A program made the translations under genes and the position numbers. The notes beneath the pieces were generated by a model. The model had not been told where the DNA came from and did no database searches. It saw only the letters and a list, made by a program, of their open reading frames with translations. Positions 9,710 to 59,822 of a DNA stretch of 64,000 bases are shown here, piece by piece. Numbering within the stretch: position 1 is the first letter of the stretch; each line of letters starts with the position of its first letter. The DNA comes from Medicago truncatula (lineage: Eukaryota; Streptophyta; Magnoliopsida; Fabales; Fabaceae): the NCBI RefSeq assembly GCF_003473485.1, contig NC_053045.1, positions 49,394,494-49,458,493 on the forward strand, given 5' to 3'.

Positions 9710-10541
9710 TTTTTAATATTATTTACATATATTGAGAAAATTAATAAATTTTTGTTAGTTTTGACATAATTTATCATCTTTTTTCATGTTCTCTCGTGTT
9801 TAAAATTATCTACACCTCTATTCCTCTCCCACTCTTTTCTCAATTTCCAAAACTCTCGCGTTATTTTTTCATGTTAATTTGTGGGAGTAGTAGCTGTTTT
9901 TGATAAGAAAGGGATGAAAAGATAGAACAAACAAAAAAAATCAAAAGATAGAATAAAAAGGTGACGAACAGTAGATGGAAAAATATAAAATCAATCATGC
10001 ATGTGAAAGATATAAAGTGCAATAGTAAGAATAAACTGAAATGTATTATTTTTTTACCTTATTATATAAATAAGAAGTTTTCACTACCTTTTTTTGAAAA
10101 AGAAAAACATTGTCACCATCTTTTTATCGATGATTAATATATGTTGGAGAATCTATTAGATGCACAAAGTGAATTCTTTTTATGTTCAAGTATGAGTGAC
10201 CATCGCACATGTTTATGAATGACTAAAATATTGGATATATATAGAGAGAGATAACTAATACACATAATATCTTAAGATTTTTGATGAAAATGTTTTTTTC
10301 TTCCATCATAACACTTGATAGTGTTTGGGCTTAACGAGTTATATTTATCACTCGTATTACTTTATACTTCGCTTTTATAATAATGAAAATACATTGACGG
10401 TTAATAAATATAATCTAGTAAAATGACCACTTTTTTTTTTTATCATATATTTTTAGTATATGTGAAATACTCAAATGCCATCATTATTGTTTGAAATTCA
10501 AGAATGATTTTAAATGGAAACAAGTTATAATTCTCAAGTTA

Positions 10542-10587
10542 GTCTCCCATGAAACCCTTTCAAAAAAAGAAAATGTCTCCCATGAAA
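10542..10587. repeat. poly(A) micro-insertion with 13-bp direct repeats
   Basis: GTCTCCCATGAAA occurs perfectly at 10542-10554 and 10575-10587. The 20 bp between them read CCCTTTCAAAAAAAGAAAAT, an A-rich insert of the class discussed in the findings. Confidence 0.7.
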
Positions 10588-10806
10588 TTTGAAGTATTTT
10601 TTTAGTGTGTAGAAAATGTTGGCATAATTGGAAATTAGTAATTACAATTTGAAACGATTGTAAAAATAAAGATGATAACTTTCTTAAGAACATTCAATTT
10701 AATAGTGCAACTTATTGGAGTTGCTTAACTCACAATTTTATGGTACCTTTTTGTAGATTTATCAATTCTCACTAAGCTACGCTAGCTAATCTATAGTTTG
10801 ATTAAT

Positions 10807-10853
10807 AAACCATTAAACAAATCTTTTTTTTAACAGAAAAACCATTAAACAAC
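10807..10853. repeat. poly(T) micro-insertion with 14-bp direct repeats
   Basis: AAACCATTAAACAA occurs at 10807-10820 and 10840-10853. The 19-bp insert is a T run with a few other bases (ATC, T9, AACAGAA). Confidence 0.7.
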
Positions 10854-11011
10854 TAAACTGTGGGATTCTCCACACGTGCATGTGCAACAACAACATCGAG
10901 GAATATATTATATAGTAACACCCACTTGGCTTTTGAATTAGAAATTTTGTATATCTAAGTAAGTATATTAAACATTATCAGTATTATTAAAAAGCATTAG
11001 TATTATTGTTA

Positions 11012-11185
11012 GGATCTTGTTAACGAGTGTCCCTGGAGCACTCTTTAAGCATTTTATATTTAGTAATTATTCTTTTAAAAAGTCAACTATTACAATTTCT
11101 TATGCATTTAATACATAATTTTTCATTAAAAACTTACTATTTAAAATGCTTAAAGAGTGCTCGAAGGCACTCGTTAACATTTGGC
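11012..11185. mobile_element. MITE, TTGTTAACGAGTG family, probable 9-bp target duplication
   Basis: The left arm GGATCTTGTTAACGAGTGTC and the right arm (reverse-complemented) GCCAAATGTTAACGAGTGCC are each followed by a matched inner palindrome (GCACTCTTTAAGCA). Flanks TTATTGTTA (11003-11011) and TTATTATTA (11186-11194) agree at 8 of 9 bases. A 9-bp duplication fits a Mutator-type element. Confidence 0.7.
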
Positions 11186-11552
11186 TTATTATTAAGCATA
11201 TCTGGCCATGTGATCTGCTGAGCTGGTTATCATGTGATTAACGGTTATAAGAATCGTTTATTACTTGGATGTGATATATATCGTTAATCGATGATTAGTT
11301 AGTGCCTATTAGCTCAATCACACGTGTATTGCTGCTGGTAAGGATTATTATATGAGATTTACAAATGACAATTTTTAAAATCATTGCTTCAAGGGACATA
11401 CATGCCCACGCTTAATTAATCTTAAAAACCGAAACTTAGTTTGGAATGAAGGGTATAATAGGAAATAGATAGAACGATTGAATAGATTCGGGAGATGATG
11501 CTTGGTTGAAAGAATATTGTATGTATAGCTTGATGGGGGAATGACAGAGAAT

Positions 11553-11588
11553 ATGTATTATATTTGTCCAAAAAAAAAAAATGTATTA
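11553..11588. repeat. poly(A) micro-insertion with 8-bp direct repeats
   Basis: ATGTATTA at 11553-11560 and 11581-11588 flanks a 20-bp insert beginning TATTTGTCC and ending in a run of A. Confidence 0.6.
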
Positions 11589-13056: not shown

Positions 13057-13065
13057 ATAGGTCAC

Positions 13066-14396: not shown

Positions 14397-14405
14397 TTTA
14401 AAATA

Positions 14406-16992: not shown

Positions 16993-17035
16993 TGAGTTAA
17001 TTTATATTCTTTAAAAAAAAAAACGATGAGTTAAT
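16993..17035. repeat. poly(A) micro-insertion with 9-bp direct repeats
   Basis: TGAGTTAAT at 16993-17001 and 17027-17035 flanks a 25-bp insert (TTATATTCTTT, A11, CGA). Confidence 0.55.
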
Positions 17036-17045
17036 ACTTATTTTA

Positions 17046-25400: not shown

Positions 25401-25507
25401 TTACTAGAATCAAACTACGTGACATTTGATAAAAGGTTCCGTATAAATACTAGACAAATAGAACTCACATCTCAAAACTATCAATATACCCTTTATTGAG
25501 TTCACGC

Positions 25508-25563
25508 GTTCACGCACATTGATTATATATACGACACGTTCACGCACATTAGTTATATATACG
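25508..25563. repeat. tandem repeat, two copies
   Basis: GTTCACGCACATTGATTATA (unit of 30 bp from 25508) is followed by GTTCACGCACATTAGTTATA (from 25538). Each ends TATATACG. Two near-identical units. Confidence 0.75.
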
Positions 25564-25821: not shown

Positions 25822-25899
25822 ATAAGCATATTTTTGTACCAAAAAAAAAAAACACATAAGCATATTTTAGTGAAATTGAATGAGACATAAGCATATTTT
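25822..25899. repeat. triple direct repeat with one poly(A) micro-insertion
   Basis: ATAAGCATATTTT occurs at 25822-25834, 25856-25868 and 25887-25899. The first gap holds TGTACC, A12 and CAC (21 bp). The second gap is 18 bp without an A run. The sequence after 25940 (GATCGGAGGAAGTA) is a Stowaway-like right end, so this may lie inside an eroded MITE. Confidence 0.55.
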
Positions 25900-26034
25900 A
25901 GGATTAGATACATTAGATATTAAATGAATTTAAAAAATTGTTTTTTGTTTATAAATGTGATCGGAGGAAGTACCGTATTGTTGTTAATTTCCTCAACAAC
26001 AAAAGAGTGCACCTCTTTCAGAAGAAAAAAAAGC

Positions 26035-27108: not shown

Positions 27109-27109
27109 A

Positions 27110-28379
27110 TAAAGAGTCAATGAACACGTCATATTAACTAGTGTAATAGATAAAACTATCGAAGCGGTGAATTTACACACGTTTAATAATTTTAGGTTTT
27201 TTTTTGTCTTGTAAGAGTTTACAATTTGATGGGTTTTTTTATGGCTATTTACTCCTACATAAATATTGTAAATGTGAATGGGAGGGATGAGACAAATTTC
27301 CAGTTCACACGTTTTCAGTGTAATTGAGAGGCATATTGAATGTGTTGGCCAATTTCAAGTCATCTTAGGAGTGATGACAACTTATCATTTGTCTTTTTTT
27401 CCAAGAGAAGACATTAAAGATGAAGCAGGTTTGTTTCAAAGGATTCATATTCAGATGAGTGACTACAGTGCACTTCATCCGATCTCAAATACAAATACAA
27501 GTTGGTTAAAGAAGCCCTTGATATATAGTATAAATTTGTAGTATGAAACTTATAATGTTTTTTTTCTAAAAGCATGAAAATACATCATAATTGTCCTCTG
27601 GTATTTTTATGTTCTATGGTATTTTTATCTTAAATAACTATATCACATGTGAAACTTAGGTCAAGTGCACACAATCAATCCATTGGTTAGGATTTTAGAA
27701 GCAGAATTTCACATGATCATCTATTTGAGAAATAAGTGTGACCATACTTTTATCATTCACATTTGCACTTATTTCACATGTTTTTCCCCTACAAAAGATA
27801 TGAATGAGTTGCCCATTCATACACGTCTACAGATGAGGCCAAAACTAATATCAAATGGAAACTAGTTAGCAACCGGTCGTTTGGTTTCAAATATAAATAA
27901 CAATATGTCAAAAAAAGTTAATGTTTTTTTGTCGTAATTTTGAAATAAATATGTTAACTTTCTCGATATTCATTTCTTCAAAAAAAAAAAAAAAACTTTC
28001 TCGATATTCATTACACAATATGCAGAGGAGCGATTTCAAATTTGTGATTCTCAATTTCTATATTGTATGTTATTTTTCACCGTTAGGCTATTTAAGCGAA
28101 GAAAATATTAATCAGAAGAAAAATGAAAATGAGATTACATCATACATTTCCTACCTTATTCTTTTATCGGTTTATCCCCTCTTTCTTATCGGGACAAGAG
28201 AATCATACATAAAGAAGAAATTGCATCAAAACCTAATCATCATATTCTTTATCGGTTTTATTTGAATTACTTTACAAAAAAAAAAATTAAAATCCAAATC
28301 AAACAAATTTGATGCACCATATTTTTTTGTTTGATTAGGAAGCTAAAGAGAAAGGAAAAAAGAAGGACACAATTAAGCT
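27110..28379. other. AT-rich spacer, no gene seen
   Basis: Open frames at 27278-27541, 27665-27865 and 27921-28265 show no domain. The last one spans a poly(A) micro-insertion. Nothing else is recognised. Confidence 0.4.
27956..28012. repeat. poly(A) micro-insertion with 19-bp perfect direct repeats
   Basis: AACTTTCTCGATATTCATT is perfectly repeated at 27956-27974 and 27994-28012. Between them is a 19-bp insert, TCTTC followed only by A. This is the cleanest example of the class. Confidence 0.85.
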
Positions 28380-29552: not shown

Positions 29553-29634
29553 CCATTTTGATATCAAAGGTCCATAGTTAGAAATTGTTATCAAGTGAAG
29601 CTAAATTGGAAGTGAGTGGTATCAAACTAGGAAG

Positions 29635-32600
29635 ATGGCAGGAACGGCAACAGTGAATCTTCCAATCATAAACCTCTCCTCACCTGATCGTCTTTCCTCA
29701 GCCAATTCCATCCGTCAGGTTTTTCTATACTAATTTTCTTTGAATAAAATATTAGTTCAACGCTTGCGAAATTAATGCAAATATGTTTAATAATATAGGC
29801 ATGTGTTGAGTATGGTTTCTTTTACCTTGTGAACCACGGTGTGGACAAAGATTTTATGAAGCAAGCGTTCGAGCAGAGTGCAAAGTTTTTTTCACTTCCA
29901 ATTGAAGACAAAATTAAATTGAACCGCAAGGAGTACAGAGGTTATACTCCTCTCTATGCTGAGAAACTTGACCCTTCACTCTCCAAAGGTATATATCTCT
30001 TTTCAAAAGACTAGCTACACTAGACCAATGAATAAGGTGTAAGTTTAAACTCAATTACCAAATCAGGAATTAAACAATGTGGTCCCTCCTTTAAAAAAAT
30101 GTGGTCCTAAAATTACCTTAATTTCAAAACAGATGTATGAGATTGATATATGATAGACGCGGTCCGATCCATGACCATAATTTCAAATTAACACATAAAA
30201 ATTTAAAATTCTATATCATTATGATCTTTTGGACAATTTTAAGGATTTAAATCTATAAACTCAACAATGAGGTCAAGCACTAAAGCTACTAGCAAAAAGT
30301 TAAGTCATATAAAATAAAGATAAAGTCTTTAAAAGAGGAACACCTTTTATTTTAGAAGTTGGTTTTTTTAAAAATGAGTTAGATTCAATATAAAATTTTA
30401 AAGATATTGAAGTTTATCTAAGATTCGTTGGATCAACCATCATTTATAAAACATGATCTATAAAGCCCCAAATACTTTAAAATGGAGACGTACCCGTATC
30501 AGATATCGATACTGATACTCGTAGTATCGACCCCAAATATTTTTTTTATTTGTATGAGTATGTGTATTTTATGTTTAGCTACCTCAATAAAATATATTTT
30601 AACTATTTCAAATAAATATATTTGTCGAAAGTTAGGATAAATAAGATGCTTAAAAGATTATCAATTGTTTGATAGATTTATTTGGTCTTATTTCGACACT
30701 TTTGATATCTTAATAAACTTCAAAGAAAACTTTGTTAGTAATGAAAATTGTAAGAACAAAGTTATATAAGTAAAATTTGTGAGTAATGAAAATTGTAAAG
30801 AGAAAGCTACATAAGTAAAACTATATAGTTTATTTTGCTTATATAAGTAAAAAATTTGTGAAATTTTCTTCTCATAGATTACTTTTTTTTTACAAACTAA
30901 AATGATATATAATAAACAACGATGAATCACTCCGCACAAGATGTGTAAAAGATGATGCAACCAAAAGTATTTACAAGGAAAGGTGCCAAAACAACATAAG
31001 CGCCTTCAACAAAACAAGAAACTAGTGAACGCCCATACACAGGAGAGGGTGTTTCCACCAATCATGATAACTGTAACTAAAAATTGCATGTTTTGATTTC
31101 AGCCAAAGAAAAGAATTTAGCTTAACTTTTTGTAGGAGAGAAGAAGGATTACAGGCCACATTATTAAATACGCAGCTGTTCATTTCCTTCCAAATCACCC
31201 AAACAAAAGCAAACTAAATTACCTTTAGATGGAGATGTGTAAATCTAGGTAAGCCATCCATATGAATAAACTGATTAAGGTGATGTCGTGGTGATGTCGA
31301 AGCTCACCAGGCAGAACTGCTGAAATGCCTAGCCAACGTAACACTGAAGGCCAAATAGAACTAAGAATTTTACATCCCAAAAACAGATGTCTAGCCGTTT
31401 CCAAATTACCGCAAGTTGCCGAACAGGTCGTATCAGTTGCTGGAATAACCCGCCGTCTTGCCAAAATATCTCATGGATTAAAATTAATATATTAATTTAA
31501 AAAAATATTTTATTTTATTTTGTTATATTTAGCCACTTTGTAAAAAATTGGTTAGATTCTTCACTTATTTGTATCTTTGTTTTTCATTAAGAAAATGTTG
31601 ATTCTACAATTGTTGAATTTTATGAAAACTTTAATATAAAGTTTTATTACAAGCAGGTGATCCAAAAGAGAGCTATTACATTGGCTCTTTGGAAGATACC
31701 ACTAGTGTTCGTTTGAATCAATGGCCTTCTGATAGTATGAATTTCCTTTGTGCTCATTCTTAATTAGGAATAATGAAAATTAGTTTCGTATACATGGTTT
31801 GTTTTTACATAAGCTTAATTACTTGAGGTGGGTTTTTTTTTTTATTGCATTGATACTCCAGAATTACTACCAAATTGGAAACCCACAATGGAATCCTTAT
31901 TTTGGAAAACACTGTAAGTTTTATTACCCTTCAAATGTATTTTTCTCTAAATTATTAAATTTCAATATTCTTCTTATGTTCCACAACAGGTCAGCTGGCA
32001 AAGAGTTGTTGTCTCTAATTGCCTTGTCTTTGAATCTTGATGAAGATTACTTTCAGAAGATCAGTGCCTCAAACAAACCGGATGCTTTTCTTCGCCTTTT
32101 GCGCTATCCAGGTTTGTTAATCAACGCGGTTCAATTTTGCATGTGATCAATTTGGCAGGCAGTAGTTCACTTCACAGTTCTAATATCAATTTGAAATACA
32201 TTAGGTGAATTGGGATGTTGTGGTGCCTCTGCTCATTCAGATTATGGCATGATCACTCTCCTAATCACCAATGGTGTTCCAGGACTACAGGTTCACATCT
32301 TTCCTTTAATATAGTTTATGTTTAAAGTTAGTATTTGTATAATTAATGACTTAAACATTCATATTTAAAGATATGCAAAGAGAAGTTGAAGCAACCTCAG
32401 GTGTGGGAGGATGTGTCTCATGTAGAAGGGTAAGTGCATGTATAAAAACTTTGTAATACAACCACTTTTAAGTCTATATAGTATATATGTTCTTTTTCTT
32501 CCTAGTGTTAGGTGATTTATGTTTGAATATGCAGGGCCATAATTGTGAACATTGGGGACATAATGGAGAGATGGACAAATTGTGTATACCAGTAAATTCC

Positions 32601-33886
32601 ATCACTCATTCACTTAAAAGTTATTTCTTTTATCAATGTTTATATAAATCATTTCTGTCATTACTCTTGCAGGTCAACCCTTCACAGGGTGATGCCAACC
32701 GGAAAAGAACGCTATTCTGTAATTACTAGCCACTTCCTTGTTTGCTTTATTTGATGAGGTTTTCTAGTTCTATAACATGATTTAAGTATGCATTTTTAGT
32801 AAAATATGAGTAGTGATGTGCAATTTTGCAGGTGGCATTCTACATGGATCCACCTTCAGACTGTATAGTGAAATGCTTTGAAAGTTGCTGCAGTGAATCA
32901 TCTCCTCCCAGGTATAGAAAAGTTTTAACCAATTAGAGTTTGTTTAACAAGCTAGACTGAATTAAGAGTCTAGTATGTGTCTAAACACACAAAAAAATAT
33001 AATAGAGTTCAATTTCGAGTGTGTTAAAAGAAAAACGGTTAACTGGGATGACCTAATTAATGTGTAAGAGAGATCTTGTAATAAGAGGAATACTTGATGG
33101 ACCCGCTTCGTGTGCAATTGGTGTTTGTACGAGTCAAATTGCACGATTGAAATATTTAGAAGATCAAAAGTGCGATTAAACTTCGTTAAGTGGGGCTCTT
33201 AATTAAATTTGATTGCAATATGAGTCTCTTATACCCTGAAGAAGAAAAGCTAAGGCAAAAACAATTATTAACAATGTTGGAGAATTTAGTTAGCTAGGAG
33301 TGACCAACATTGGGTATCAAGTCCCCTCACTATAAATTATTGAATTCTATCTATTCCAAAAGTTTTTCTTTACATAGACTTCTATGTGCATACTTTGTAT
33401 TACAGTGAATTTTCAGAAATCAGTGTGAGGCACAGTAATTTTGTAAAAGTTACAGAGTGTTGTTTTTACAAAATCATGATGGCTCACGGTAATTTCAACA
33501 AATTCAATATGGTACCAAACATGTACTAAACAACACAAGTTTACAAACGAAAGAGACACATCCTTGCAAAATCTACAAAGTATAGCTTCACAAAAATACA
33601 GTACTCATCCACTATAGTTAAGACAAACTTACTGTAATTCTAAATATGTACCGTGTAAATTGTAAATCTCATGTGCTTGCAGAAAGTCTTTTTTTTCTTT
33701 CTTGATGGAACTAAAAGTGTTCTTTATCAATATGAAAGTTACATATAAATCTTATTTTTATGCGGAAGATGCAATAACTTTTTGTACATTCCATGCAGAT
33801 TCCCTCCAATACGTAGTGCAGACTACTTCAATGAGCGATTCAAGCTCATATATGGGTCTGAAAAGGATCTTAAATGGTCCCTTTAG
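29635..33886 (+). CDS. 2-oxoglutarate/Fe(II)-dependent dioxygenase, array copy 1
   Basis: A predicted soluble oxygenase of the plant DOXC class, resembling the At1g35190/hyoscyamine-6-hydroxylase-like branch. The substrate is unknown. Eleven exons join in frame: 29635-29718, 29799-29988, 31657-31734, 31862-31913, 31990-32111, 32205-32290, 32371-32429, 32535-32591, 32673-32718, 32832-32911, 33799-33886, giving 313 residues, normal for the family (about 310-330). The N-terminal DIOX_N part holds YGFFYLVNHGV and YRGYTPLYAEK. The iron ligands are HSD (H186, D188) and H247 in STLHRVMP. The 2-oxoglutarate-binding RxS is R256-Y-S258. Against copy 2 it lacks four residues just before the HxD motif (GCCGASAH) and one Ser in exon 2. 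Intron 2 carries a reversed LINE fragment. The reading frame is intact throughout, so it may be functional. Confidence 0.9.
30882..31468 (-). mobile_element. 5'-truncated LINE inserted in intron 2 of dioxygenase 1
   Basis: On the minus strand, a zf-RVT zinc-binding domain (CGNLETARHLFLGCK, WPSVLRWLG) is followed after frameshifts by the usual LINE C-terminus (FLWLKSKHAIFSYSYHDWW), a stop near 31023, a 3' untranslated region and an A8 tail. Flanks TCTCATAGATTA (30870-30881) and TCTCATGGATTA (31469-31480) are a 12-bp target duplication with one mismatch. About 587 bp remain. Frame disruptions show that it is dead. Confidence 0.9.
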
Positions 33887-35210: not shown

Positions 35211-35251
35211 GTAATTTATGTAAATTATGCAGACATGAATGAAAGATTATT

Positions 35252-36024
35252 AGTTTCTCTTGTGAGCTGTCACCAAAACCCTAGTTTCTTCTCATTCAAT
35301 GATAAAGAAAAAGTATAAAAAGTTATCTAATTTAGACATAGTATAGGGCGGATGTAGCCAAGTAGATCAAGGCAGTGGATTGTGAATCCACCATGCGCGG
35401 GTTCAATTCCCGTCATTCGCCCATGAATCTATTAAATCTAGAGAAAAAAAGATAAAATAATTTCGAATAGAATCTTTTAAAACAAAAAGAAAAAAGAGAA
35501 AAGAATTTATAATATACTCATGTTGCAGCTGATACTGCTGTTTTCTTGATCCATCAAAGAGGGGTTATTTAGGGTCAATTTTTGATCCAAAATCACCCCT
35601 CTAACTCGTTTTTCTCTTTCCCTTATATTGAAATAAGAGATTTTCACATCTATTTCGTTTTTTATTTTGTGATTTTGTCGTCTTTGTGCGATGTTGGTTT
35701 GTTCGTCGTCTTTGTGCAACGTTGTTTGTTTTTCTTGTTTCTCTCAGCTATTTGATCGGTTCAGATTGTCAAATTAGCTTCGATACAGTGCAAATCCAAT
35801 CAATGACTTTGGCGTCATCCACGTTGCAGATCTGGAGACATGGTTATTCCGGAGATCTAAATCTAGTCATATGTGTAGGCATTTGTACTTTGTCGTTTAT
35901 GCTATTAACATGGATGTTGTGAGCCTGTTCACAGATTCATCCTTTTTGTTTTTAGCGAATTTGCATTATTTCGATGTACTCTATCAATTTGAATGAATGA
36001 ATATCTTTTATTTTATCAAAAAAA
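35252..36024 (+). mobile_element. retroposed segment with A-tail and 17-bp target duplication
   Basis: ATGAATGAAAGATTATT (35235-35251) and ATGAATAAAAGATTATT (36025-36041) are near-identical 17-mers. The 773 bp between them start with a leader-like ACCAAAACCCTAG and end TTTTATTTTATC plus a run of A, as in LINE 3' ends. This is the signature of target-primed reverse transcription. Inside lies an organelle-type tRNA-His. No protein domain was identified (the frame at 35686-35922 is unassigned). Probably an internally deleted LINE or chimeric retrocopy. Confidence 0.65.
35347..35421 (+). tRNA. trnH-GUG: tRNA-His(GUG), plastid-type
   Basis: The cloverleaf is complete: acceptor GGCGGAT pairs with ATTCGCC, the D-arm is GCCAAGTAGATCAAGGC, the anticodon stem-loop is GTGGA-TTGTGAA-TCCAC with anticodon GTG, and the T-arm GCGGGTTCAATTCCCGT is present. 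The sequence matches the plastid trnH type rather than the eukaryotic cytosolic one. From memory of the plastid gene it differs at about two positions. It is embedded in nuclear repeat sequence, so it is best read as organellar DNA transferred to the nucleus (NUPT, or NUMT because plant mitochondria often carry this tRNA). Expression is doubtful. Confidence 0.85.
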
Positions 36025-36096
36025 ATGAATAAAAGATTATTGAATCATTTTCTTATATTTATCGGTTTGATTTGAATTAAATTTCGTAAAAAAGTA

Positions 36097-36222
36097 TTCT
36101 TTTCGGTCTTATTTATAAGAGACGTTTGTATCAACAAAAATTGATGTGCCTGGTTCAAAATTAAATCAAATACATAGACTTTTGTTGACTAAAAGATATC
36201 TTATAAATAGGACTGAATGAAG
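36097..36222. mobile_element. Stowaway-type MITE (126 bp)
   Basis: Left TTCTTTTCGGTCTTATTTAT and right (reverse-complemented) CTTCATTCAGTCCTATTTAT are inverted, with inner TCAACAAAA words. TA lies on both sides (36095-36096 and 36223-36224). Sibling of 18763-18889. Confidence 0.85.
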
Positions 36223-36265
36223 TATTTTTTTTTTTTTTTTTGTATAAAAGGACCGAATGAAGTAT
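36209..36265. repeat. poly(T) micro-insertion at the edge of a Stowaway MITE
   Basis: AGGACTGAATGAAGTAT (36209-36225) and AGGACCGAATGAAGTAT (36249-36265) are 17-bp repeats with one mismatch. The 23-bp insert is a T run followed by GTATAAA. The left repeat is the end of the MITE, so this insertion is younger than the MITE. Confidence 0.75.
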
Positions 36266-38736: not shown

Positions 38737-41700
38737 ATGGCAGGAACAGCAACATTGAGTCTTCCTATCATAGACCTCTCCTCACCTGATCGAATTTCCA
38801 CAGCCAAATCCATCCATCAGGTTTTCTATACTGCTATTAATAATTAATTAGTTCAACACATCCATGCATATACTGTGTTTCAATATTGATAATAATAACT
38901 AAGAAAAATTTATAGGCATGCGTTGAGTATGGTTTTTTTTACCTTGTGAACCACGGTGTGGACGAGGATTTTATCAAACAAGCATTCGATCAGAGTGCAA
39001 ACTTCTTCTCACTTCCAATTGAAGACAAAATTAAATTGAACCGCAAGGAGTATAGAGGTTATACTCCTCTCTATGCTGAGAAACTTGACCCTTCTTCACT
39101 ATCCAAAGGTAATTGGAGACACTTATTTGAGTTGTCGGACACCGGACACATGTACAAGGGGTGTCTAAGGTGTATTGAAACAAAGCAAAAACAAATAATT
39201 TTTTTTAGGACATTTATCTAAATTCCAGAGGTGTTTGTGCTTTAGTGTCTAAATTTGTTGAATTTTCTGAAAGATAGAAAATTTTAATTTGATAACTTGT
39301 ATTGTATTATAAGCAGGTGATCCAAAAGAGAGCTATTACATTGGCCCTTTAACAGATACCACAAGTGTTCGTCTGAATCAATGGCCTTCTAATGGTATGA
39401 ATTTCCTTTGGGTTGTGCACATTCTTCATTAGGAATAATGAAAATTAATTTTGTGTTCTGGTTTTATTTTTTTACATGAGATTAATTACTTGAGGTGTTT
39501 TTTCTTTCTTTCCGGCAATGACACTTCAGAATTACTCCCAAATTGGAGACCCACAATGGAATCCTTATTTTGGAAAATACTGTAAGTTTTATCAACTTTC
39601 AAATAATGTACTTTTCTGCATGTTACTAAGGCCCTGTCTACTCATAGTATATGTTTGACTATACCAAGAACTTTGCTCTTTTTTTTTCCTCTTTGCGAGT
39701 GTATTGCTTGTGTCAGTTTGAGCATTCAAATTTACATTCTTTTCTTTTTTCTATTGTTAAAAAACAGTTTTGAATTTAAATATTCTTCTCATGTTCCACA
39801 GGTCAGCTGGCAAAGAGTTGTTGTCTTTAATCGCCCTGTCTTTGAATCTTGATGAAAATTATTTTGAGAAGATCAGTGCCTTAAATAAACCAGAAGCTTT
39901 TCTTCGCCTTTTGCGCTATCCAGGTTTATTAGTATTTATTTTATTTTCTGAACCTTCTTAATTAAGCACATAGCCTAATCGGTAATACCAATTTTGTTTG
40001 CCTTTTACTGTTGATAACGTGTTTGTAAATTACATTAGGTGAATTGGGACCTAATGAAGAGATATGTGGTGCCTCTGCTCATTCAGATTATGGCATGATC
40101 ACTCTCCTATTAACCAACGGTGTTCCAGGACTGCAGGTTCTCATATTGAACCTTAACTCCTGTTTAAAGTTAGTATTCACATAATTTTGTTTTGAAGACG
40201 CGTATTATTCACATTATTAATGACTTAAGAATTTATATTTAAAGATCTGCAAGGAGAAGTTGAAGCAGCCTCAGGTATGGGAGGATGTTTCTCATGTAGA
40301 AGGGTAAGTTCATGTAGAAGAACTTTGTAAATAATATGTTACCACCACGTTTAAGTCTATATGCTTTTCCTTTCCCTTCTAGTGTTAGGTGTTTTATGTT
40401 TGAATATGCAGGGCCATAATTGTGAACATTGGGGACATGATGGAGAGATGGACAAATTGTTTATACCGGTAAATTCCATCATCTAGCAACTTATAATACA
40501 TTTCTTTTATCAACTGTTTATATCATATCATTCTTAGTTTCTGCTATTACTCTTGCAGGTCAACACTTCACAGGGTGATGCCAACAGGAAAAGAACGCTA
40601 CTCTGTAACTATTACTAACCACTTCTTTCTAGCCATGACATTACACATTTCGCTTCTTTGTTTTCATTTTGTTGGCATGTTTTCATATACTTTTCCAGCG
40701 AAATATGAGTGGTAATTTTGTACTTTTGCAGGTGGCATTCTTCATGGATCCACCCTCAGATTGTGTTGTGGAATGCTTTGAAAGTTGCTGCAGTGAATCA
40801 TCTCCCCCCAGGTATAGAAAAGTTTTATCGAATTTTATTTTAGTTCAATTTTGACTGTGTTAAAAGCAAAATGGACTTGATATATTTTCAAAATCCTGTG
40901 TCTCTCAACAAACAAAATCTTTCACTTCTTTTGTGAAACGTTAAAAGTTCATAATCTATTCGTTTTTTAGTACACATTCGATTTCCAAATTCCGTAGCCT
41001 ATGTGAATTTGGGGATTAGTTGCACTGACTTCTGCTAGCTTAACAATGCCAGCATGTAACAAGAAATGAACATTCGCGTGCCAAAAACATGCTTCTAATA
41101 GTTGATATGTGCAGTCTCGTTGTTTGACCACTTCGGCATCTCACACTGGTTGTACAACTCGCCAACTTAGACTCACATTGATCACATAGGCTACGAGCAA
41201 TTGGTATTTGTGTGACTAAAATAACACAAAAAGATCAAAAGTGTAATTAAACCTTGTTATAAAGCGAGGGGCCCTTTCCTTATATAAGAAACGTTAACTA
41301 ATGACATGGCATTTTCTTTTGCTTTTGCCCAAAAACAAAAAAAACTGATGACATGGGAAGATGCCATAGGGACATAGATAACCTTAAAAGTTACTTTTAT
41401 TGCAATCTGAGTCTCCAATAGCCCCGAAGACGAAAAGCTGAAGCAAAAACATTGTTTTATTTTATTTTGGTCAAGTAACCTAGTGGCTAGAATTCACCTT
41501 TTTCAAGGTAAATAAGTGGGGTGTCCAGGTTCGAACCCCGGCCCCTGCATATAATAATGCATGTCCCTGCCAACTGAGCTATGCTCACGGGGACATTTTA
41601 TTAGCATTGTTGGAGAACTTTTTTTTTTTTTTTTGACAAATCATTGTTGGAGAACTTAGTTAGCAAGGAATGACCAGCATTCGGTATCAAAAGTTAATCT

Positions 41701-41968: not shown

Positions 41969-43537
41969 AGTTTGTGCAAACATTCATTTGGTTTCAACCA
42001 AATTTAAATACATGTTGCATTTTAATAAAGTTTTCAAAATCTGGTCTATGACTATTGGTTGTTGTCATATCATATCAAGAATTTATTATGATATTGTTGT
42101 TGTTTTTATAATAGTTGGACCCGATGGATAAATAGCTTATTTAAGTACTTATGCATTAAGTGTTTATTTCTAAAGAGTTTACATCACATATGCTTAAACT
42201 TAATAAATTATGTGTGTTTGGATTATATGTGGAAAGATACTCATACAAAGTTAAAGTGTGTCGATGTATTTGATGTTAAATTCATACCTAAAAACACAAA
42301 CTCGGACGAGTATATGAGTTAACATTCTGAGTTTGAAAACAATCATCTGAATCTTAAATCTCTTTATTGTCATAAGTCGTAACAAACATAATACAAGTGT
42401 CCTAGTACACCAAAAAATGTTACATTGTTTAAGAATTAAGATGAAATGCAGTTTATAAGCAATAGTCATCGACTAACTATTGAGATGCCTCTTCTTCAAA
42501 AAACTATTGAGATGCCTTTTACAATTGACAAAATTGTAAGTGCTTCTACATTAGACTCAAAGTGGACAATACATTGGAAATGTGATGCCGTGGACTTGGG
42601 TCAGATCATTGGCGCGTCACTAAACTTAGGGGGGACTGAGTTGAAAGTATAATTTAGTGAAGAAAAGTAAATTTTTAAATGCACAACATATACAAGATAT
42701 TTAAGAAATTATAAGATATATTCAAAATTAATATATGTTTTAAATTATAAAATATTTCAAGAACATAAGAAAGTTGAGTACCTTAAGGTTTGCCAGAGAA
42801 TGATAAAACTAAAGCGATTTTCAAATAGCAGAGAAAAATAATATGAAACAATGAGAATGCAAATATAGGAAGATGAAATCACGACTAATGAATCGTTTGT
42901 TAGTGATTGTTAGCGGTTCCTCACTTTCTGATTTGCTGTTAAGGATAGAGAAATTAAGCTCATAAACTTAAGGTCCATTATATTGAATCTAACAAAAGGG
43001 TCATTATACAATATCATATGAAGTTCACAAAAAATAAATATATATCAAAAAGTATAATTGCATATTAGCGTTTTTTTTTTTTAAAAGCTCGGGGGACCGT
43101 GGCCTATGTTGGTCCCCCTTCTAGCTTCATCCCTAGCATCATGTGGAGGTTGAACTTATGTCACTCTCTGGTAGAATCGTTAGCTCCTTAACTCTATGTC
43201 TTTGACCGGATGCCACATATTATTCTAAATACAGCAAAAAGTTGCATATTATTTGAGAATCGAGACTAAATATAGTTTACAAATAGTGCTCCTCTATCGC
43301 TGAGACGTCTTTTATAAATGACGAAGCCTTAACATACAATATTGCTCTTGAGGTTGGAACTTGGAACAATAACATAGTAAGTAGTAGTGGGAGGTGGGGA
43401 GTCACAATCGAATATCTCGAGATTTGCCTCTATATTTCTATATTTATATCAATGAGTCAACAAAATTAAACCTCCATAGTTAAAGATTTACTATCAACAG
43501 AAGCTGAACTGGAATTAGTATCAGATAAGGGAAAGAA
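41969..43537. other. spacer between dioxygenase copies 2 and 3
   Basis: Starts with the 3' untranslated region of copy 2. Open frames at 42251-42469 (minus) and 42446-42652 (plus) have no domain. A retroelement-like scrap (GCTCGGGGGACCGTGGCC) lies near 43087. No gene supported. Confidence 0.4.
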
Positions 43538-44007
43538 ATGGCCATGACGGCAAAATTGAGTCTTCCTATCATAGACCTCTCCTCACCTGATCGTCTATCC
43601 ACAGCCAATTCCATCCGTCAGGTTTTTCTCTACTAATTGTTTATACTATTACTAGTATTAATTAGTTCAACACTAGAGAACTCTCGATGCAAATATTAAT
43701 AATAATTAAAATTTATAGGCATGCGTTGAGTATGGTTTCTTTTACCTTGTGAACCATGGTGTGAATGAGGATTTTATGAAGCAAGTGTTTGAGCACAGTG
43801 CAAAGTTCTTCTCACTTCCTCTCCAACACAAAATGAACTTGATCCTAGTCCACTTTCCAAAGGTATATTCTTATTTTTAGATATTTATTTTAGTTCATAA
43901 ATTATAGACGTTAAATTAATATTCATAACCATTTTCTAAATACATGACCAATTTTTCTTATAACATTAGAGATTTATATGTTTGGATACTCCACTTCTAT
44001 TATTATA

Positions 44008-44191
44008 GAGAAATGATATTTGTACAACTATTATGTGACAACTTTTGGAAAATTTTATCTCTTATACTCACATGAGATTTCTATTCTCTCTCTTCCTTTT
44101 TCTCTCTCCATTGTTTTTGACCAATAAGAAGAGAGAAAAACAAAGTTGTCACCAAAATTATCATCAATTAGATATACAAATATCACTATTC
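44008..44191. mobile_element. MITE, TATTTGTACAAC family, 9-bp target duplication
   Basis: Left GAGAAATGATATTTGTACAA and right (reverse-complemented) GAATAGTGATATTTGTATAT are inverted, with inner GTGACAACTTT on both arms. The 9-bp repeat ATTATTATA flanks at 43999-44007 and 44192-44200. 184 bp, inside intron 2 of the dead dioxygenase. Confidence 0.88.
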
Positions 44192-45155
44192 ATTATTATA
44201 CTAGTAGTTTTTAAGAGCAAGATCTAATAATATCCAAATTATACTATCCTCTGCTCTTTTTGGACACATCTGCACCTCTATTTTTATCTCTGCGGTTCTT
44301 GTGGAGAGGATTGACCAATTGATATTGCTTTCTACCTAATTATTTGTCTTTTTTGATGAAAGAGAGCTCAGTATTTTGTATTTTTCCACTTTATTATTAT
44401 TATTATACTTGAAATTCTCCAAAATGCAAAAATAAAAGTTAAGTTGATAACGTTTCTTTGTTTGAGAGTTTGGAAAGAATGGGAAAGAACGATTTTGGAG
44501 GGTTAAAAATATAGAGAAAAATGGTAAAATCTTTTATATTTTTTAAACGAGTAATTTTTTAAAGAATGATAGATTAATGTTTATGATTAATATATTTTTA
44601 ATTTTAAGAATATTATAACTTCGTAGATTAAATTTGAAGAATTCATGTAAATCATCTTTCAATACAATTTTTTGGTTCCCCAAATTATGAGACTTTTGTC
44701 CTATGAAGAAAAATGAACCCCAAAAGTCTTTCCCTCTTAATGTCATCTATTTCTTCCACTTTCTCTTTCCTTTATATCCAAACTCCTCCCCCCTTCCTCT
44801 CTAAACTCGAAAACCAAGCCTTAGGAAAATAGACGCATTATAGACAATAATATTGTTTTAAAAATATTATTATATTTACTATGTATTTAAATGAAAGTGT
44901 TTGTTAAATAGAGATGATCAATCTCATAATTGATTCCATCTTGAGAGACTATAATGACCCAAGATAGGTCCAAGAGAATATAATAGCCAAGCTAAATAAA
45001 GATTATGATGAGTTAATTGCATATATTTTAGAGATTAGTCATCATGTTCTAGAAGAATCTAGAGATATCATTTGTGATGAGTCATTAGAATGTCAATGCT
45101 ATAAATAGTGGGTTGGTCATTGTAATCCTTATCAAATGAATGAATGAAAAAAATA

Positions 45156-45438
45156 TTTCATTTGTTTCAAAATGAGTGTCATTTTAGCTAACAAAAATTG
45201 TTTCAAAATAAATCTCACTTTCAGTTTTCAATACAATAATAACTTTTTCTTTTCAATTGTACTCTTCAATTAATATTATATACACTACTCCCAAAATATT
45301 ATTTATTCTTCAATAAAAAACAAACAAATAGTTGATTAGGATAATTTGGTGAAATAACATTTCTATTTCTTTTAATTAATACATTTTTTAATATGTGTGT
45401 AAAAACCTTAAACGATATTCATTTTAAAATGGAAGGAG
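45156..45438. mobile_element. Stowaway-like MITE in intron 2 of the dead dioxygenase
   Basis: The left arm (CATTTGTTTCAAAATGAGTG) and the right arm (reverse-complemented, CTCCTTCCATTTTAAAATGA) are inverted. TA occurs at 45154-45155 and 45439-45440. About 283 bp, AT-rich, non-coding. Confidence 0.65.
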
Positions 45439-47019
45439 TAGTTTGTTAGAATAATATAGTCGTATTTTTTAGTCCCTTTTAAAAATAATTTTCCTCCATT
45501 AATGAACAACCTCAAAACTTGTTCATAGCAAAGACTCAACCACAAAGCTAAAGTTGTTGTGTAAACTATCTACAAAAGTGATATAGAGCGAGACTTGTAT
45601 TATTCTAACAAACTCAGAGTCTTGAATTTGTCACTAATTTCACACAAAAAAAACTGTTTAATTTTCTAAAAGATATAAATCCTTTGATCAGTCCTTCTAA
45701 TTAAGCAGATGATCCAAAAGAGAGCTACTAGGTACATTGGTCCTTTAACAGATAAAACTAGTGTTCGTCTGAATCAATGGCCTTGTGATGGTATACATTT
45801 TCTTTGTCCTCATTTTTTCTTTTCATGCAATGACACTCTAGAATTACTGCCAAATTGGATACCCACAATGGAATCTTTTATTTTGGAAAATACTGTAAGG
45901 TTTATTACCCTTCAAATTAATGTCTTGTTAATTATCTGCCTCAGGTCAGCTGGCAAAGAGTTGCTTTCTCTAATTGCCTTGTCTTTGAGTCTAAGATGAA
46001 AATCACTTTGAGAAGATAGGTGCCTTAAGCATACCAAAAGTTTTTCTTCGCCTTTTGCACTATCCAGGTTTATTAATTAGCATTTTATTTTTTTTAAAAT
46101 GGTACACAAAACTTAAATGACTATTATTTTGAGACGGAGAGAGAGTATATTAATCTAAAGTTTTTTCTGCCGTACTTTATTAGTAGAGTCAAGTTTTTTT
46201 ACCATTTTTTTTTTTTAAAGAAAACCAACTAATATAATCTATGTAACCTTTTATAATGTGAATTATATCAGGTGAATTGGGATCTCGTGAAGAGAAATAT
46301 GGTGCCTCTCCTCATACAGATTATGGCATGATCACTCTCCTATTGACCAACGGTGTTCCAGGACTGCAGGTTCTCATCTTCTCTTTAGTATTACTTTTTG
46401 TTCTAGAGCTCCTCATATATATCATATCATATGAGAAAGGAAATGGAGTTTCTTCTTCTATGGCCCTGTATTAGGATTCACTAATTCAGACTACATAGGA
46501 GAATTGGATTTGAAACAAAGGAAATAGTAAAAATAAACATAAAAGAACACAATTTCAGGATTAGATACTCGTGTGCCGTATTTTCTTGCACCCTGATTTT
46601 GTAAGGGTTGAGTCTAACTCGACACAAATTTTAAATTGGTACGAAAGTGAAGGGTTGAATTAAGTTCAAACCAAATTCTAAGACTCACCTAGGTTATAAA
46701 TCTCATGGCTTAACCTTTCCTTACAATTTTGGAGTGAATCTTCTCCCCCAAGGTAGAGTAAAAGTATTATCCAATTAGTTTGTTTAACTAGTCGACTAAA
46801 ATAATAAGAGTCTAACATGTGTCTAAGCACACACAAAAAATATACACGGAGCTCAACTTTGAGAGCGTTAAGAGAATAATATACGGAAAATGCTATTTCT
46901 CTAAAAAAATAGCATCAAAAATTATTCAAGACACACAGTTGATAAGTTTTAATTGCATGATTTATTTGTTCATTTCATATGTTATTTTTCTAAAGATATA
47001 GCATTGCTCATAATATACT

Positions 47020-47066
47020 AGCAAGTAGCAATACTTTTTTTTTTAGAGAAGCAAGTAGCAATACTT
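47020..47066. repeat. poly(T) micro-insertion with 17-bp direct repeats
   Basis: AGCAAGTAGCAATACTT is perfectly repeated at 47020-47036 and 47050-47066. The 13-bp insert is T8 plus AGAGA. It lies in the remnant intron 10 of the dead dioxygenase. Confidence 0.8.
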
Positions 47067-47484
47067 GTATGGTCACAAATACAAATGTTTTGAATTTAGT
47101 CACACTCATAAAACCATGAAAAGTAAAGATAAAATAATTGACTTTTATTAGTATTGTTGATATTTCCTCTTCTACTTTTATTTATTAGCGAGTGTGCATA
47201 AATCCAAAACATTTTTTTTCTGTGGCCTGGGTATAGAAGTGTTGCTCTTGATAGTTTTATCTTTATCTTTATTGAAAGTTACTTATAAATAAATCTTATT
47301 TACATGAAAATATTTTGTCAAATGTTTTATGCAGGTTCCCTTCTATACGTAGTGGGGACTACTTGAATGAAGGGTATAAACTTATATACGGTTCTGAAAG
47401 AGATCTTAACTAATGCTTCATTCAGTCAAAGAAATTAGCTACACTTCCCTGGGCACAAAATTATCATGTTTTAGATAAGTTTTA

Positions 47485-47643
47485 GAGTGTGTTTGGATGG
47501 GGGATTGTTTTGAGAGAAAATAATGTTTTTGAGGGAATTCAACCACTTTAAGGTGAATTCTATTGTTTAAATTCACCTCAAAATAATTGAATTCCTTCAA
47601 AACATTACATTCCCTCAAAATATTCCTCCATCCAAACACACTC
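47485..47643. mobile_element. Tourist-like MITE with TTA target duplication
   Basis: GAGTGTGTTTGGATGGGGGA and (right, reverse-complemented) GAGTGTGTTTGGATGGAGGA form a near-perfect hairpin of 159 bp that pairs almost to its centre. TTA flanks both ends (47482-47484, 47644-47646), as in PIF/Harbinger-derived Tourist elements. It lies about 70 bp after the stop of the dead dioxygenase. Confidence 0.85.
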
Positions 47644-48467
47644 TTAAGATATTTGCAATATATATTTTATCTGTCGACGTTAAGTTTTGTGAAATTATTT
47701 GCAAGATCTTATGAAAACGGCTTACGTTTTCTATTTTCAGTTTCAAAAAATATGTTCATTTTAATTTGCTAACATGATCGAAGATCGATGCGAGTCTCTT
47801 GAGTTGAATCGTTGTAAACGATGAGAAATGAAATGTTGCTTAGAATGTATTTCAGAAAATAATATATAAACTATTCTTTTAACATTTTCATTGTTCCATG
47901 AAATATAGATAATTGTTCACTTTGAGAGTCTCTTATTCCCTTGTTAACAAATATTCAGATATCAAGATCAAGTAAAACTGTAAAAACTTGAATATACAGT
48001 AACTAAAAGCTATGTAAACCACAAGTTAATCTATAAGAAAAGGTGGGGATATTAATCTTTGGTCCTTTACTTTGGACTAAACAACATGAGTTTAAAATAA
48101 CAACAATAACCAAGTCTAATTTTATTAAATGGAATCAGCTACATTGATCGAATAGGTCATAATGTTATATCATAAATTATATATTTGGATCAAACTCGTT
48201 AATCTGAGTTTAGAAATTAAAAAAAAAAAACATTTTTATCCCGTAAAGACATCTGAGACATGTAAAAGATTACGATGATATTTGATGTGTTTGGATTATT
48301 GTTTTAAATCACAATATCTATTTTCTTCTCATTTGGTGTTTTTGAGTTTAAGCATTAATTAAGCTCTCTATATATATTATATATATTTCTTATTCTTATT
48401 GAAAGCTACGTATAAATCTTATTTTTACACATCAGATGTTGCAAGCTTTTGTCAATATTTTCTGCAG

Positions 48468-48556
48468 ATTCCCCTCAAATACATAGTGGGGACTACTTGA
48501 ATGAACGGTTCAAGCTCACATATGATTCTGAGAGGAATCTTAAATGCTGCATGTAG
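48468..48556 (+). pseudogene. orphan terminal exon of a fourth dioxygenase copy
   Basis: After an acceptor TTTTCTGCAG the sequence repeats exon 11 of the array: SGDYLNERFKLTYDSERNLK, then a short tail and TAG. The first codons carry a one-base shift (CCCCTC for CCCTCC). The 100 bp upstream match intron 10 of the other copies. No other exons of this copy remain, so it marks a fourth unit or a partial duplication of copy 3's end. Confidence 0.9.
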
Positions 48557-48891
48557 TAAAAAAAAACTAAAGTTTGTACGTCCCTATGTATATGGCTAAT
48601 TCTTGTTTGTGTAACACAGATACGTCGATCTATGGATAAACAATTTACTTTGGATAAACAATTTAATATTATGAAATATAAGTGTTTATTTATAAGGAGG
48701 TTCGACTTCACTTGGTTTACTTTACTTTATTTATTATTATTCATTTACGAAAGAAATAAGCATAATAATAAATAAGGGTGTAAAATTAAACTTTCAATTA
48801 AAATTAGAGGTAATAACGAGTCATTGACATTGCCGAGTATAAGCTCTTATTCTCTTTTCTTTACTTTATTTATTTATAATATAGGTGCAAT

Positions 48892-51437: not shown

Positions 51438-52190
51438 CTCCATCCGTTTCTTTTTAAGTGTCATTTTAAGGTTAATTTTTTGTTCTTATTTAACTGCATT
51501 TTGGTATTTTAATGGTACGATTTGTCAATTACTCATATTTTTTTCTTTGTTTGGTTACTCTTATCTTTTTTAATAAAATTAATTAATGTTATATATTTGA
51601 AAAACTAAAGTTTTTTTTTTTAAACTAAGTTTTTTTTTTAAAACAAAATTTGTTTCTTGTTATCTTCAGATTTAAACAAATGTAAAGAGATAAATATTGT
51701 ACACGTACCATTGTTGCTCTTTTCTGTATGCTCTACTAAGTTATCTTCATCCAGTGTGGATCTAGCATTGGTTAAAGCCATAGTTGAAGCCTTAATTTTG
51801 ATTAAATAAGTTTGAGGACAGATAATTTTTTTCTTAGCTTTTTATTAATGTGAAGTTGGAATAATTTTTATATTGACTTAAATTAATTAAAGAGTTGTGC
51901 ACAATATTTCGAAAATTGACAATTGTTTGTTATGAGAAGGAGTGTGTAAAAAAAATTGTTGGAGAAAAAGATAGTAAGTAACAAATGTTTGTTACGATCT
52001 AAAAAAAAAATGTTTGTTATGAAAAAATATAACATATTAAATTTATTAGAAAGATAAAGTGTGTGCCAAAATATATAAATATATTGGTGGATTAAATTGA
52101 GGGTATAATAGGAAGAAAATGTGCAAAAATACACTTTGCTATTTTTCGTGGAAATTTTTTAAAATGACACTTAAAAAGGAATCGAGGGAG
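51438..52190. mobile_element. Stowaway-like TIR element, enlarged
   Basis: The left end CTCCATCCGTTTCTTTTTAA and the right end (reverse-complemented) CTCCCTCGATTCCTTTTTAA are inverted, each followed by GTGTCATTTTA. TA is at the left border and TT at the right. At 753 bp it is long for the group, probably enlarged by nested insertions, one being the micro-insertion at 51983-52019. Confidence 0.7.
51983..52019. repeat. poly(A) micro-insertion with 12-bp direct repeats
   Basis: AAATGTTTGTTA at 51983-51994 and 52008-52019 flanks CGATCT plus a run of A (13 bp). Confidence 0.65.
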
Positions 52191-52398: not shown

Positions 52399-52444
52399 CA
52401 AAATTTAACCTTTTTTTTTTTTTTTTGGTCAGGCAAAATTTAAC
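52399..52444. repeat. poly(T) micro-insertion with 11-bp direct repeats
   Basis: CAAAATTTAAC at 52399-52409 and 52434-52444 flanks a T run of about 16 followed by GGTCAGG. Confidence 0.7.
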
Positions 52445-53152: not shown

Positions 53153-53200
53153 AAAGCAACCCAATCACTTGCATGAAGAAAAAAAAGCAACCCAATCACT
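53153..53200. repeat. poly(A) micro-insertion with 17-bp direct repeats
   Basis: AAAGCAACCCAATCACT is perfectly repeated at 53153-53169 and 53184-53200 around a 14-bp insert TGCATGAAGAAAAA. It lies about 350 bp upstream of the MYB-related start codon. Confidence 0.8.
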
Positions 53201-57850: not shown

Positions 57851-57852
57851 CC

Positions 57853-58645
57853 GTTCCTAGAGTTTTACAGACCTTAGGCATAATATGAAAAAGGCCCCCT
57901 TATATGATATATCATAAATTTTTTTAGTTCATTGTTGTGATTTTATGTCTTCATTTTAATTTTTTCCCGCTTTTTACCAACAAAAAAGAACAAAAAAAAA
58001 AAAGATGAGTAGGCCATATCATCCTAAATGCGTCTCATATCGGTTTCATGATCGTGAACATGTCTCGCATGATTTTCCATTATCAAATTCAATTTTGTAA
58101 TCATTTTAATAATTCAAGAAAGTTGACATTACTATTATGATATAATTTAATTTTTTGGAACCTTTGAAAAAGACCATTAAGATTAATTTCTCTAATAGGC
58201 AGATTTTCAACTAAAATATAATTTGTTTAGTTATAAAATTGTCTCAATTTCTTGGATAATAAATATTACCAATATTTTTAATATTAGTGAGACACATTAT
58301 TAGGTAAAAAGGTCCCAAAAAATATCACCAATTTCTTCGAGAATAATTGTTTTGGCAGATTATTAAGAAGAAAAAAAAACATTAAAGGGAGGGTGTATAT
58401 ATAATTTTTTTATATACAGGGGTGTATATAGTAAATAACGAAAAAAAAGGGCCTAAAACTTGAACAAGCTTCAGTCCAGCCTTTCATCATTACAATGTTT
58501 GGGCCTTTCAGTGAATATTTCTATACACATCCCGCAAAAACCAAATATTTCTATATACACCCCCACCTTAAAAAAAAATTAGGGCCCCTACCGGCATGGG
58601 CCCTAGGCCGTCACACCCCTGGCCTAAGCCTAGGGCCAGCCTTGA
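57853..58645. mobile_element. hAT-like non-autonomous element (tentative)
   Basis: The left side has CCGTTCCTAGAGTTTTACAG with GCATAATATG and AAAGGCCCCC. The right side has GGCCCTAGGCCG and GGCCTAAGCCTAGGGCCAGC. The latter reads like the GGCCGGCCCT-type termini of some legume hAT elements. Inverted-repeat quality is poor and no target duplication was found. A possible second element with GGGGTGTATATA/TATATACACCCC ends is nested at about 58420-58566. Confidence 0.35.
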
Positions 58646-59060
58646 GAGATAGCATGTTTGATCATCCAATAAAGTGGAGAGCATCGCTATCAATTTGAAA
58701 CCTATATTTCAAACGTAGAAGGATAACTATTACAATATTTACTAATTACTCCCTTCACAAAAAACATAATCTGGTAAGTAAAAGTTTTTTGGAATTGAAT
58801 AAGTTATCAGAAAACTTAAGTTTTATTGAATTTTTTTTAAAGAATCCGGTTAAATTGTAGATTTCTTCAAAGCTCCAAGGACAAAAACATATCACAAATA
58901 TAAACATTTAGATATTAGGTTCATGTCAATTAATTAAATATTTATTTAGTTATCTAATTAGAAATCTAAATAGTCTATGTACCCAAAAAAAATATAAATA
59001 GTTTTATTACGTAATTTTACGCTAATCAATTACGACTTCTGATTAATACAAATATTATAA

Positions 59061-59287
59061 GGGTTAAATATATTTTTAATCCTTACATTTTGCGCCCCTT
59101 TGAAGAATAGTCCCTACATTTTATTAAATATTTCTAAAATCCTCATATTTTATCTCCCTTATCAAAATTAGTCACTGTTGTTAATTCTCTAACGAAATGC
59201 TGATATGACAGTTAATGGATTCAAAAATGTAAGGACTATTCTTCAAAGTCAAGCAAAATGCAGGACCAAAAAAAATATATTTAACCC
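59061..59287. mobile_element. non-autonomous TIR element, GGGTTAAATATATTTTT family
   Basis: Left GGGTTAAATATATTTTTAAT and right (reverse-complemented) GGGTTAAATATATTTTTTTT are inverted. Inner words (TTACATTTTGC, GAAGAATAGTCC) are mirrored by GCAAAATG and GGACTATTCTTC. 227 bp. Relative of 4592-5065. Confidence 0.75.
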
Positions 59288-59545
59288 TAATGCAGGATGT
59301 AAAATATTTCGAGATAAAAAATATTCCAAAAGAGTAATATATGATAACCTAATATATATTATCTTTTTATTTGATTATTTCTTAAAATAGACCTTAAATA
59401 CAAAATATGTGTGTATCAATTTTAATTTCAAATAGAAATTAAATTGTAGTATGTCAATATGGATATTTGAAAATTATGTCGAATCAAAAAAATTAATTAC
59501 GTTCACATCACCCAAACAAGACATATTTTCAATACAATCTTTATC

Positions 59546-59740
59546 ACATTCAAATAATTACCATAAATATTTCTTTCTTTCTTTTGAGAGTACGTTCAAA
59601 TAATTAGCATAAATATTTATTTCTTTCCTCTGAGAGAAAGAAATATTTCTTTCTTTCTTTTGAGAGCACATTCAAATAATTAGCATAAATATTTCTTTCT
59701 TTCTTTTGAGAGCACATTCAAATCATTAGCATAAATATTT
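59546..59740. repeat. 46-bp tandem repeat array, about 4 units
   Basis: Units contain AAATATTTCTTTCTTTCTTT, GAGAGCACATTCAAAT and AATTAGCAT. Complete units begin near 59565, 59641 and 59687, with a shortened one (ATTTATTTCTTTCCTCTGAG) at about 59613. Unit borders vary slightly. Confidence 0.8.
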
Positions 59741-59747
59741 AGTTATT

Positions 59748-59822
59748 TCTAAATATAAGTGTTTTATTTTTTTGACAAATTCTAATATAAGTGTATTTTT
59801 TTAAGGAATCTAATATAAGTGT
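59748..59822. repeat. two successive poly(T) micro-insertions in one site
   Basis: TCTAATATAAGTGT occurs three times (59748-59762 with one extra A, 59781-59794, 59809-59822). The first gap is TTTATTTTTTTGACAAAT (18 bp) and the second ATTTTTTTAAGGAA (14 bp). Both gaps are T-rich, as in the other micro-insertions, and the first shares GACAAAT with the insert at 41621-41641. Confidence 0.75.

Follow-up and report, generated by a model that had tools for sequence, protein, structure and literature searches.

What has placed a poly(A) or poly(T) run between the two copies of a short direct repeat at more than a dozen sites in a single stretch of Medicago truncatula DNA? The stretch, hereafter the window, is 64,000 nucleotides long (G000:C4:49394494-49458493, 31.5% GC) and belongs to a genome of 430 Mb in 42 contigs, the one genome that all results below cover. 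Reading every run as poly(A), we consider it highly probable that every site holds an L1-type insertion consisting of little more than its tail, left when target-primed reverse transcription ended no more than about 10 bases past the poly(A).

The direct repeats are real and far too frequent for chance. All 15 sites listed by the first-pass annotation, which had described at least a dozen insertions of one design, were found at their coordinates, and 14 of them carry repeats of 8-19 bp, exact or with one mismatch; four further sites were found as well. The site at 9917..9953 (+ strand), listed as weaker, is present with an 11-bp repeat, but 8 of its 11 bases are A and it is kept only as a weak candidate. 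The repeats at 11553 (8 bp) and 16993 (9 bp) are each near chance when judged alone. Over the whole window, repeats of at least 9, 11 and 13 bp around a run number 21, 14 and 9, compared to means of 1.7, 0.32 and 0.02 (maxima 7, 2 and 1) in 60 shuffles in which the A/T runs were fixed and the remainder was dinucleotide-shuffled; the comparison with shuffled sequence, proposed at the outset as a check, thus comes out far above chance. One of the 14 repeats of at least 11 bp (14577) is itself inside an array. When left and right flanks were re-paired, taking in 160 of the 161 window runs, 20 of 160 runs had a repeat of at least 9 bp versus a mean of 1.7 (maximum 5, 40 permutations), and an inverted-repeat control on the same window runs gave 2. 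The class also occurs outside the window, since 200 kb of random stretches hold 41 hits compared to a null of 2.75.

Direct repeats per se are not specific to the class; polarity, leader and target are. The poly(A) run abuts the right repeat, and a leader, mostly 5-10 bases rich in C and T, lies between the left repeat and the run. A fixed rule (A-run of at least 7, exact repeat of at least 10, right copy at -3 to +4 of the run end, left copy within 25 bases) was applied to a 314 kb sample, consisting of the window and 25 randomly placed stretches (250 kb; 20 from 160 drawn places, 5 added). Among 712 runs, 40 are repeat-flanked, with leaders of 5-10 bases in 30, 0-4 in two and 11-25 in eight, whereas the corresponding means over 30 permutations are 0.13, 0.03 and 0.30, with a total that never exceeds 3. 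These hits were kept without hand removal, and a few of them sit in repeats or represent one site counted on both strands (L032). The mirrored geometry yields 7 hits in all leader classes versus 40, the mirror having no null of its own. Of the inserts, 32 have leaders of at most 10 bases; the window contributes 13 and the random 250 kb 19. Inserts made of tail bases only do not describe the class, leaders of 0-4 being found in 2 of 40 hits under the fixed rule and in 9 of 37 seed loci (described below) under a microhomology-generous rule.

When 264 kb were scanned with mismatches tolerated, 28 hits had 5-10 bases, 4 had 0-4, 3 had 11-20 and 26 had 21 to more than 1000; by eye, most of the 26 are arrays or gene paralogues, with two clear bodied inserts (window 36017 and L022). 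A smooth truncation series was considered and is disfavoured by the peak at 5-10 bases, in a scan whose long classes have no null. The leaders also differ in composition from the bases before other runs. In 42 inserts chosen more loosely (50, of which 8 were removed by hand), they contain A 20, C 29, G 8 and T 42%, compared to A 31, C 17, G 15 and T 37% in the bases preceding 551 runs that lack a duplication; without hand removal (50 inserts), the values are A 23.5, C 26, G 9 and T 42%. Position -1 of the leader is C in 64% of the 42 inserts, but in 27% of the 551 runs.

For the target, the right copy was required to begin at the first non-A beyond the run, which keeps bases of the run out of the repeat. 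With this definition, the left core is immediately preceded by A in 20 of 21 cases, and the next base outward is A in 19 of 21; at seed loci, A is found at the two positions in 17/23 and 16/23. This replaces a first estimate of 83-88% AA targets, which was possibly inflated because repeats could take up run A. Compared with a TT|AAAA-like target, the A side is present and the T side has no clear majority. The targets thus start with AA, as at an L1-type nick.

Several leader words recur across the genome, and three (TTTTGTC, TGTACC and TCTACC) match retroelement 3' ends. TTTGTC-A10 is found 2047 times versus 113 for the reversed control (ATTTGTC-A10, 395 versus 20; [CGT]TTTGTC-A10, 1652 versus 93), TGTACC-A10 797 versus 40, and TCTACC-A10 609 versus 30, whereas CATGTC-A10, a permutation of TGTACC, is found 27 times versus 32. 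A fixed 7-base unit ATTTGTC was rejected, because the leading A or ATT is often part of the duplication and T is far commoner there. Two bodied LINE copies, L058 and L065, have TTTTGTC as their 3' end before the run; they have 237 bp in common and belong to the same family as the LINE 3' fragment of the window at 35557..36024 (+ strand, start approximate), whose body ends at 36017 with TTTTATC-A8. The earlier proposal that the leaders resemble LINE 3' ends therefore holds for TTTTGTC, but other element families contribute, and most leaders are so far unassigned. At locus L081, the sequence upstream of TGTACC is GGGCTTTGCCCTCTTTTGTACC. Matches to GGCTTTGCC followed by 4-24 bases and A10 number 172 on the forward and 806 on the reverse strand (a single tail may count repeatedly), with none for the reversed control; among the matches listed, the two main groups end in TGTACC and CTATCTACC. 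In C1 up to 44.5 Mb, again among the matches listed, an exact GGCTTTGCC was seen by eye upstream of 6 of 81 TGTACC-A10 and 9 of 51 TCTACC-A10. Most of these places would accordingly appear to lack the GGCTTTGCC body, diverged copies escaping such a count.

To follow the words individually, 56 seed loci were fetched (20 ATTTGTC, 20 [CGT]TTTGTC and 16 TGTACC), with a required A-run of at least 10 that biases them to young tails. At 37 of the 56 (11/20, 11/20 and 15/16, respectively), the duplication exceeds the 99th percentile for 3080 mismatched pairs, and 36 of these 37 have a leader of 0-9 bases, the leader of L081 being 23. Under a looser rule, 26 of the 40 TTTGTC loci have a duplication. 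The loci are otherwise largely unrelated: one upstream match, of 37 bp, was found among the 20 ATTTGTC loci, and no shared sequence among the 16 TGTACC loci over the ~90 upstream bases compared. At 19 TTTGTC loci with the exact LINE-end leader, the end of the duplication has 0, 1, 2, 3 and 4 extra bases in common with the LINE end in 5, 4, 6, 3 and 1 cases. These shared bases fit microhomology-assisted joining, in counts that have no null and to which T-rich sequence contributes some by chance.

The state before insertion is visible at two sites, as the empty-site check suggested earlier would have it, here with relatives from within the genome. The joined flanks of 41605 match 33265..33320 (+ strand) over 56 bp at 87.5%, with a single repeat copy and no run, and a three-way alignment agrees with an empty state in this tandem gene paralogue. 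At 51983, the length excess ranges from -2 to 22 (median 8) in 34 non-self relatives that span the joined site, compared to 27 for the window copy (best 40 of 345); among the six relatives starting within ~47 bases of the junction, the excess is 0-4 in five and 18 in one. For seven other sites, only the site itself spans among the best 40 of 345 scored, a list filled by the 51983 family that says little; as little follows for 47020, which has no spanning relative among the best 40 of 116 candidates. By self-comparison, the window contains three tandem copies of one gene (29563-33888, 38633-41975 and 43439-48577; oxygenase-like by eye), which are useful empty-site partners.

We infer the following enzymology. 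An endonuclease would nick one strand at a target starting with AA, and the T-rich 3' end so released would serve as primer on the poly(A) tail of an RNA, whether from a LINE, a SINE-like element or elsewhere. The reverse transcriptase would then run through the A-tail and, as a rule, halt within ~10 bases beyond it; the second strand would be cut ~8-24 bp away and the ends joined, probably with the help of microhomology, giving the order duplication, leader, A(n), duplication. These inserts would depend on LINE endonuclease and reverse transcriptase. The earlier idea of target-primed reverse transcription halted almost at once is supported by the polarity, the AA target, the LINE-end word and the empty sites. 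The stop may be due to a short stem that two families have just before the tail, to release of the rA:dT hybrid by the enzyme, or to host RNA cleavage. The stem of GGCTTTGCC, ~11-13 bases from the tail, is common to two of the three assigned families. Folding of three element ends compared to shuffles gave z values of -0.52 (L010), 0.45 (window LINE) and -0.42 (L081), none clearly more stable, which makes a hairpin weak as a general cause and leaves the stem as a candidate only. In PMC10830420, human ORF2p is reported to be highly processive and host RNA cleavage is suggested as the cause of truncation, and this makes a positional stop worth testing.

Four other origins can be set against this one. 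If staggered double-strand breaks were mended with filler DNA, gapped tandem duplications would result in which A-rich filler is incidental. Such patch-mediated tandem duplications arise at plant double-strand breaks, and they resemble the present sites in their short gapped direct repeats, which are in excess here even where no A/T run is present. An oriented A-run or recurrent filler is, however, not expected there, whereas our runs are oriented, the targets start with AA, the tested words recur by the hundred and coincide with the 3' ends of retroelements, and there is little sign of copying from the flanks, so that we regard this origin as very improbable. Slippage, or growth of an A-run between pre-existing repeats, is hardly credible. 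A-runs are slippage-prone and several of those here are interrupted, but 41605 and 51983 have relatives without insert, and leader words recur at loci without common upstream sequence. Target-primed reverse transcription predicts the combination of run polarity, AA targets, duplications and 3'-end words that recur; filler repair and slippage do not. Nor do we give any real weight to full-size insertions later cut down to the tail by internal deletion: two loci discussed below (L057 and L059) suggest that tails can collapse by deletion, but such deletions would have to stop repeatedly at the duplication and yet spare the last bases.

A closer competitor keeps target-primed reverse transcription and changes the template, the RNAs being mostly ordinary mRNAs and the leaders the last bases of many 3' UTRs (untranslated regions). 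The leaders are indeed diverse and mostly without assigned source, and nearly all have a pyrimidine before the A, like plant cleavage sites. Yet they are rich in C (26-29% versus 17% before other runs), and each tested word recurs hundreds of times, which makes mRNA templates an unlikely, if serious, alternative. L1-like mRNA retrocopies are reported in dicots (PMC4838847); they are like the present inserts in target, poly(A) and duplication, and differ in carrying a gene body.

Several observations count against tail-only retrotransposition as we propose it. Gapped direct repeats of at least 11 bp, of all kinds, number 41 in the window versus a shuffled mean of 1.6, and 27 of the 41 have no A/T run of 7 (some of them in tandem arrays, and one identical with site 42475), hence direct repeats alone prove little for the class. 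Examples without A-runs are 25507-25563, 25854-25901 and 35677-35717. Four comparisons of leaders with local flanks gave z values of -0.1, 0.75, 1.9 and 2.1, so weak local copying is possible. The nine seed loci with leaders of 0-4 make the lower bound of 5 soft, because shared bases may go to the duplication or to the leader. Nineteen of the 56 seed loci fail the duplication test; two, L058 and L065, are bodied LINE ends and L059 is a relative of L057, but the remainder are unexplained or decayed. The three assigned words are a minority among the leaders, and TTTGTC, TGTACC and TCTACC precede none of 147 runs of at least 10 A in the random 250 kb, where the genome counts lead one to expect ~2. 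Bodied LINE copies are not rare, the LINE 3' region having 2120 first-look candidates (best 40 scored), and site 51983 lies within a stretch carrying internal TTTGTTATGA repeats.

How the inserts relate to known products can be seen from two comparisons. New LINE insertions are mostly heavily truncated, often to a few hundred bp, according to PMC10830420; 5'-truncated L1/LINE copies and the present inserts both have poly(A), a flanking duplication, an AA-type target and loss of the 5' side, whereas here the body is ~0-10 bases and forms a separate size class in the sample, not the tail of a smooth range. The short distance between poly(A) and stop would open the long-standing question of what causes 5' truncation in LINE copies to direct test.

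Simple poly(A) insertions are known among human L1-mediated disease mutations and are likewise body-less tails flanked by a duplication; ours differ in being from a plant, in their short recurrent leaders and, by extrapolation, in their number. We know of no annotation for such a tail-only class. A literature search on tail-only insertions gave nothing on point among the papers listed, poly(A) being unusable as a search term, so absence from print is not implied. The 19 inserts per 250 kb with leaders of at most 10 extrapolate, from these 19 sites, to ~3 x 10^4 per 430 Mb. If this density holds, the class outnumbers detectable bodied insertions in the sample, and LINE-driven mutation scatters A-runs and short gapped duplications throughout the genome of a model legume; if our interpretation is true, the class records target nicks that yielded no copy. 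More tentatively, and with doubt prevailing, the tail-only insertion could be a main, mechanistically defined LINE product here, reverse transcription stalling at a set place just past the poly(A) and leaving tens of thousands of short ghosts with duplications; such a stall may come from an upstream stem or from an rA:dT hybrid lost from the enzyme.

On the + strand of the window, probable tail-only inserts lie at 10542..10587 (13-bp duplication, leader CCCTTTC, A7 then GAAAAT), 25822..25868 (13 bp, leader TGTACC, the 3' end of the GGGCTTTGCCC family, A12), 27956..28012 (19 bp, TCTTC, A14-16), 51983..52019 (12 bp, CGATCT, A7-10) and 53153..53200 (17 bp, TGCATGAAG, A5-8). Those at 11553..11588 (8 bp, TATTTGTCC, A11-12, with TTTGTC in common with the LINE end) and 16993..17035 (9 bp, TTATATTCTTT, A11, adjoining an inverted-repeat element) are weak singly. 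The - strand has 10807..10852 (14 bp, TTCTGTT, A8 then GAT), 41605..41657 (16 bp, ATTTGTC, A14-16), 47020..47066 (17 bp, TCTCT, A8-10) and 52399..52444 (11 bp, CCTGACC, A16 then G). The sites absent from the earlier list are 30076..30107 (+, 10 bp, CTCCTTT, A5-7), 42475..42517 (+, 16 bp, CTTCTTC, A4-6), 59897..59929 (-, 10 bp, ACATCTC, A6-7) and the weaker candidate 58391..58430 (-, 11 bp, CTGTATAT, A7). The listed site at 36209..36265 (-, leader TTTATAC, A16-17) is present, but it sits at the end of an inverted-repeat element (36088-36233) and its 17-bp duplication has one mismatch.

At 59748-59822, two successive tail-only inserts occupy one target with like duplications, the inner at 59752..59794 (-, leader ATTTGTC, A7 then TAAA) and the outer at 59781..59822 (-, 14-bp duplication, leader TTCCTT, A7 then T); L057 and L080 show the same arrangement. 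A new A-run may recreate the nick site and so give successive inserts. L057 and L059 are related segments, with two tails in L057 and one tail without right copy in L059, a state that suggests collapse of an L057-type array by deletion.

Two further elements were observed. L010:4940-5060 is a SINE-like element with what we take to be tRNA-type boxes; it ends in GGCTTTGCCATTTCGTCTATCTAC-A15 and has partial relatives in L019, L029 and at window 12447. At 35235-36041, a 17-bp duplication with one mismatch surrounds the LINE 3' fragment together with ~300 bp that include an organelle-type tRNA-His, possibly a chimeric retrotransposition product; 181 bp around the tRNA-His recur at 92-98% in three other chromosomal places.

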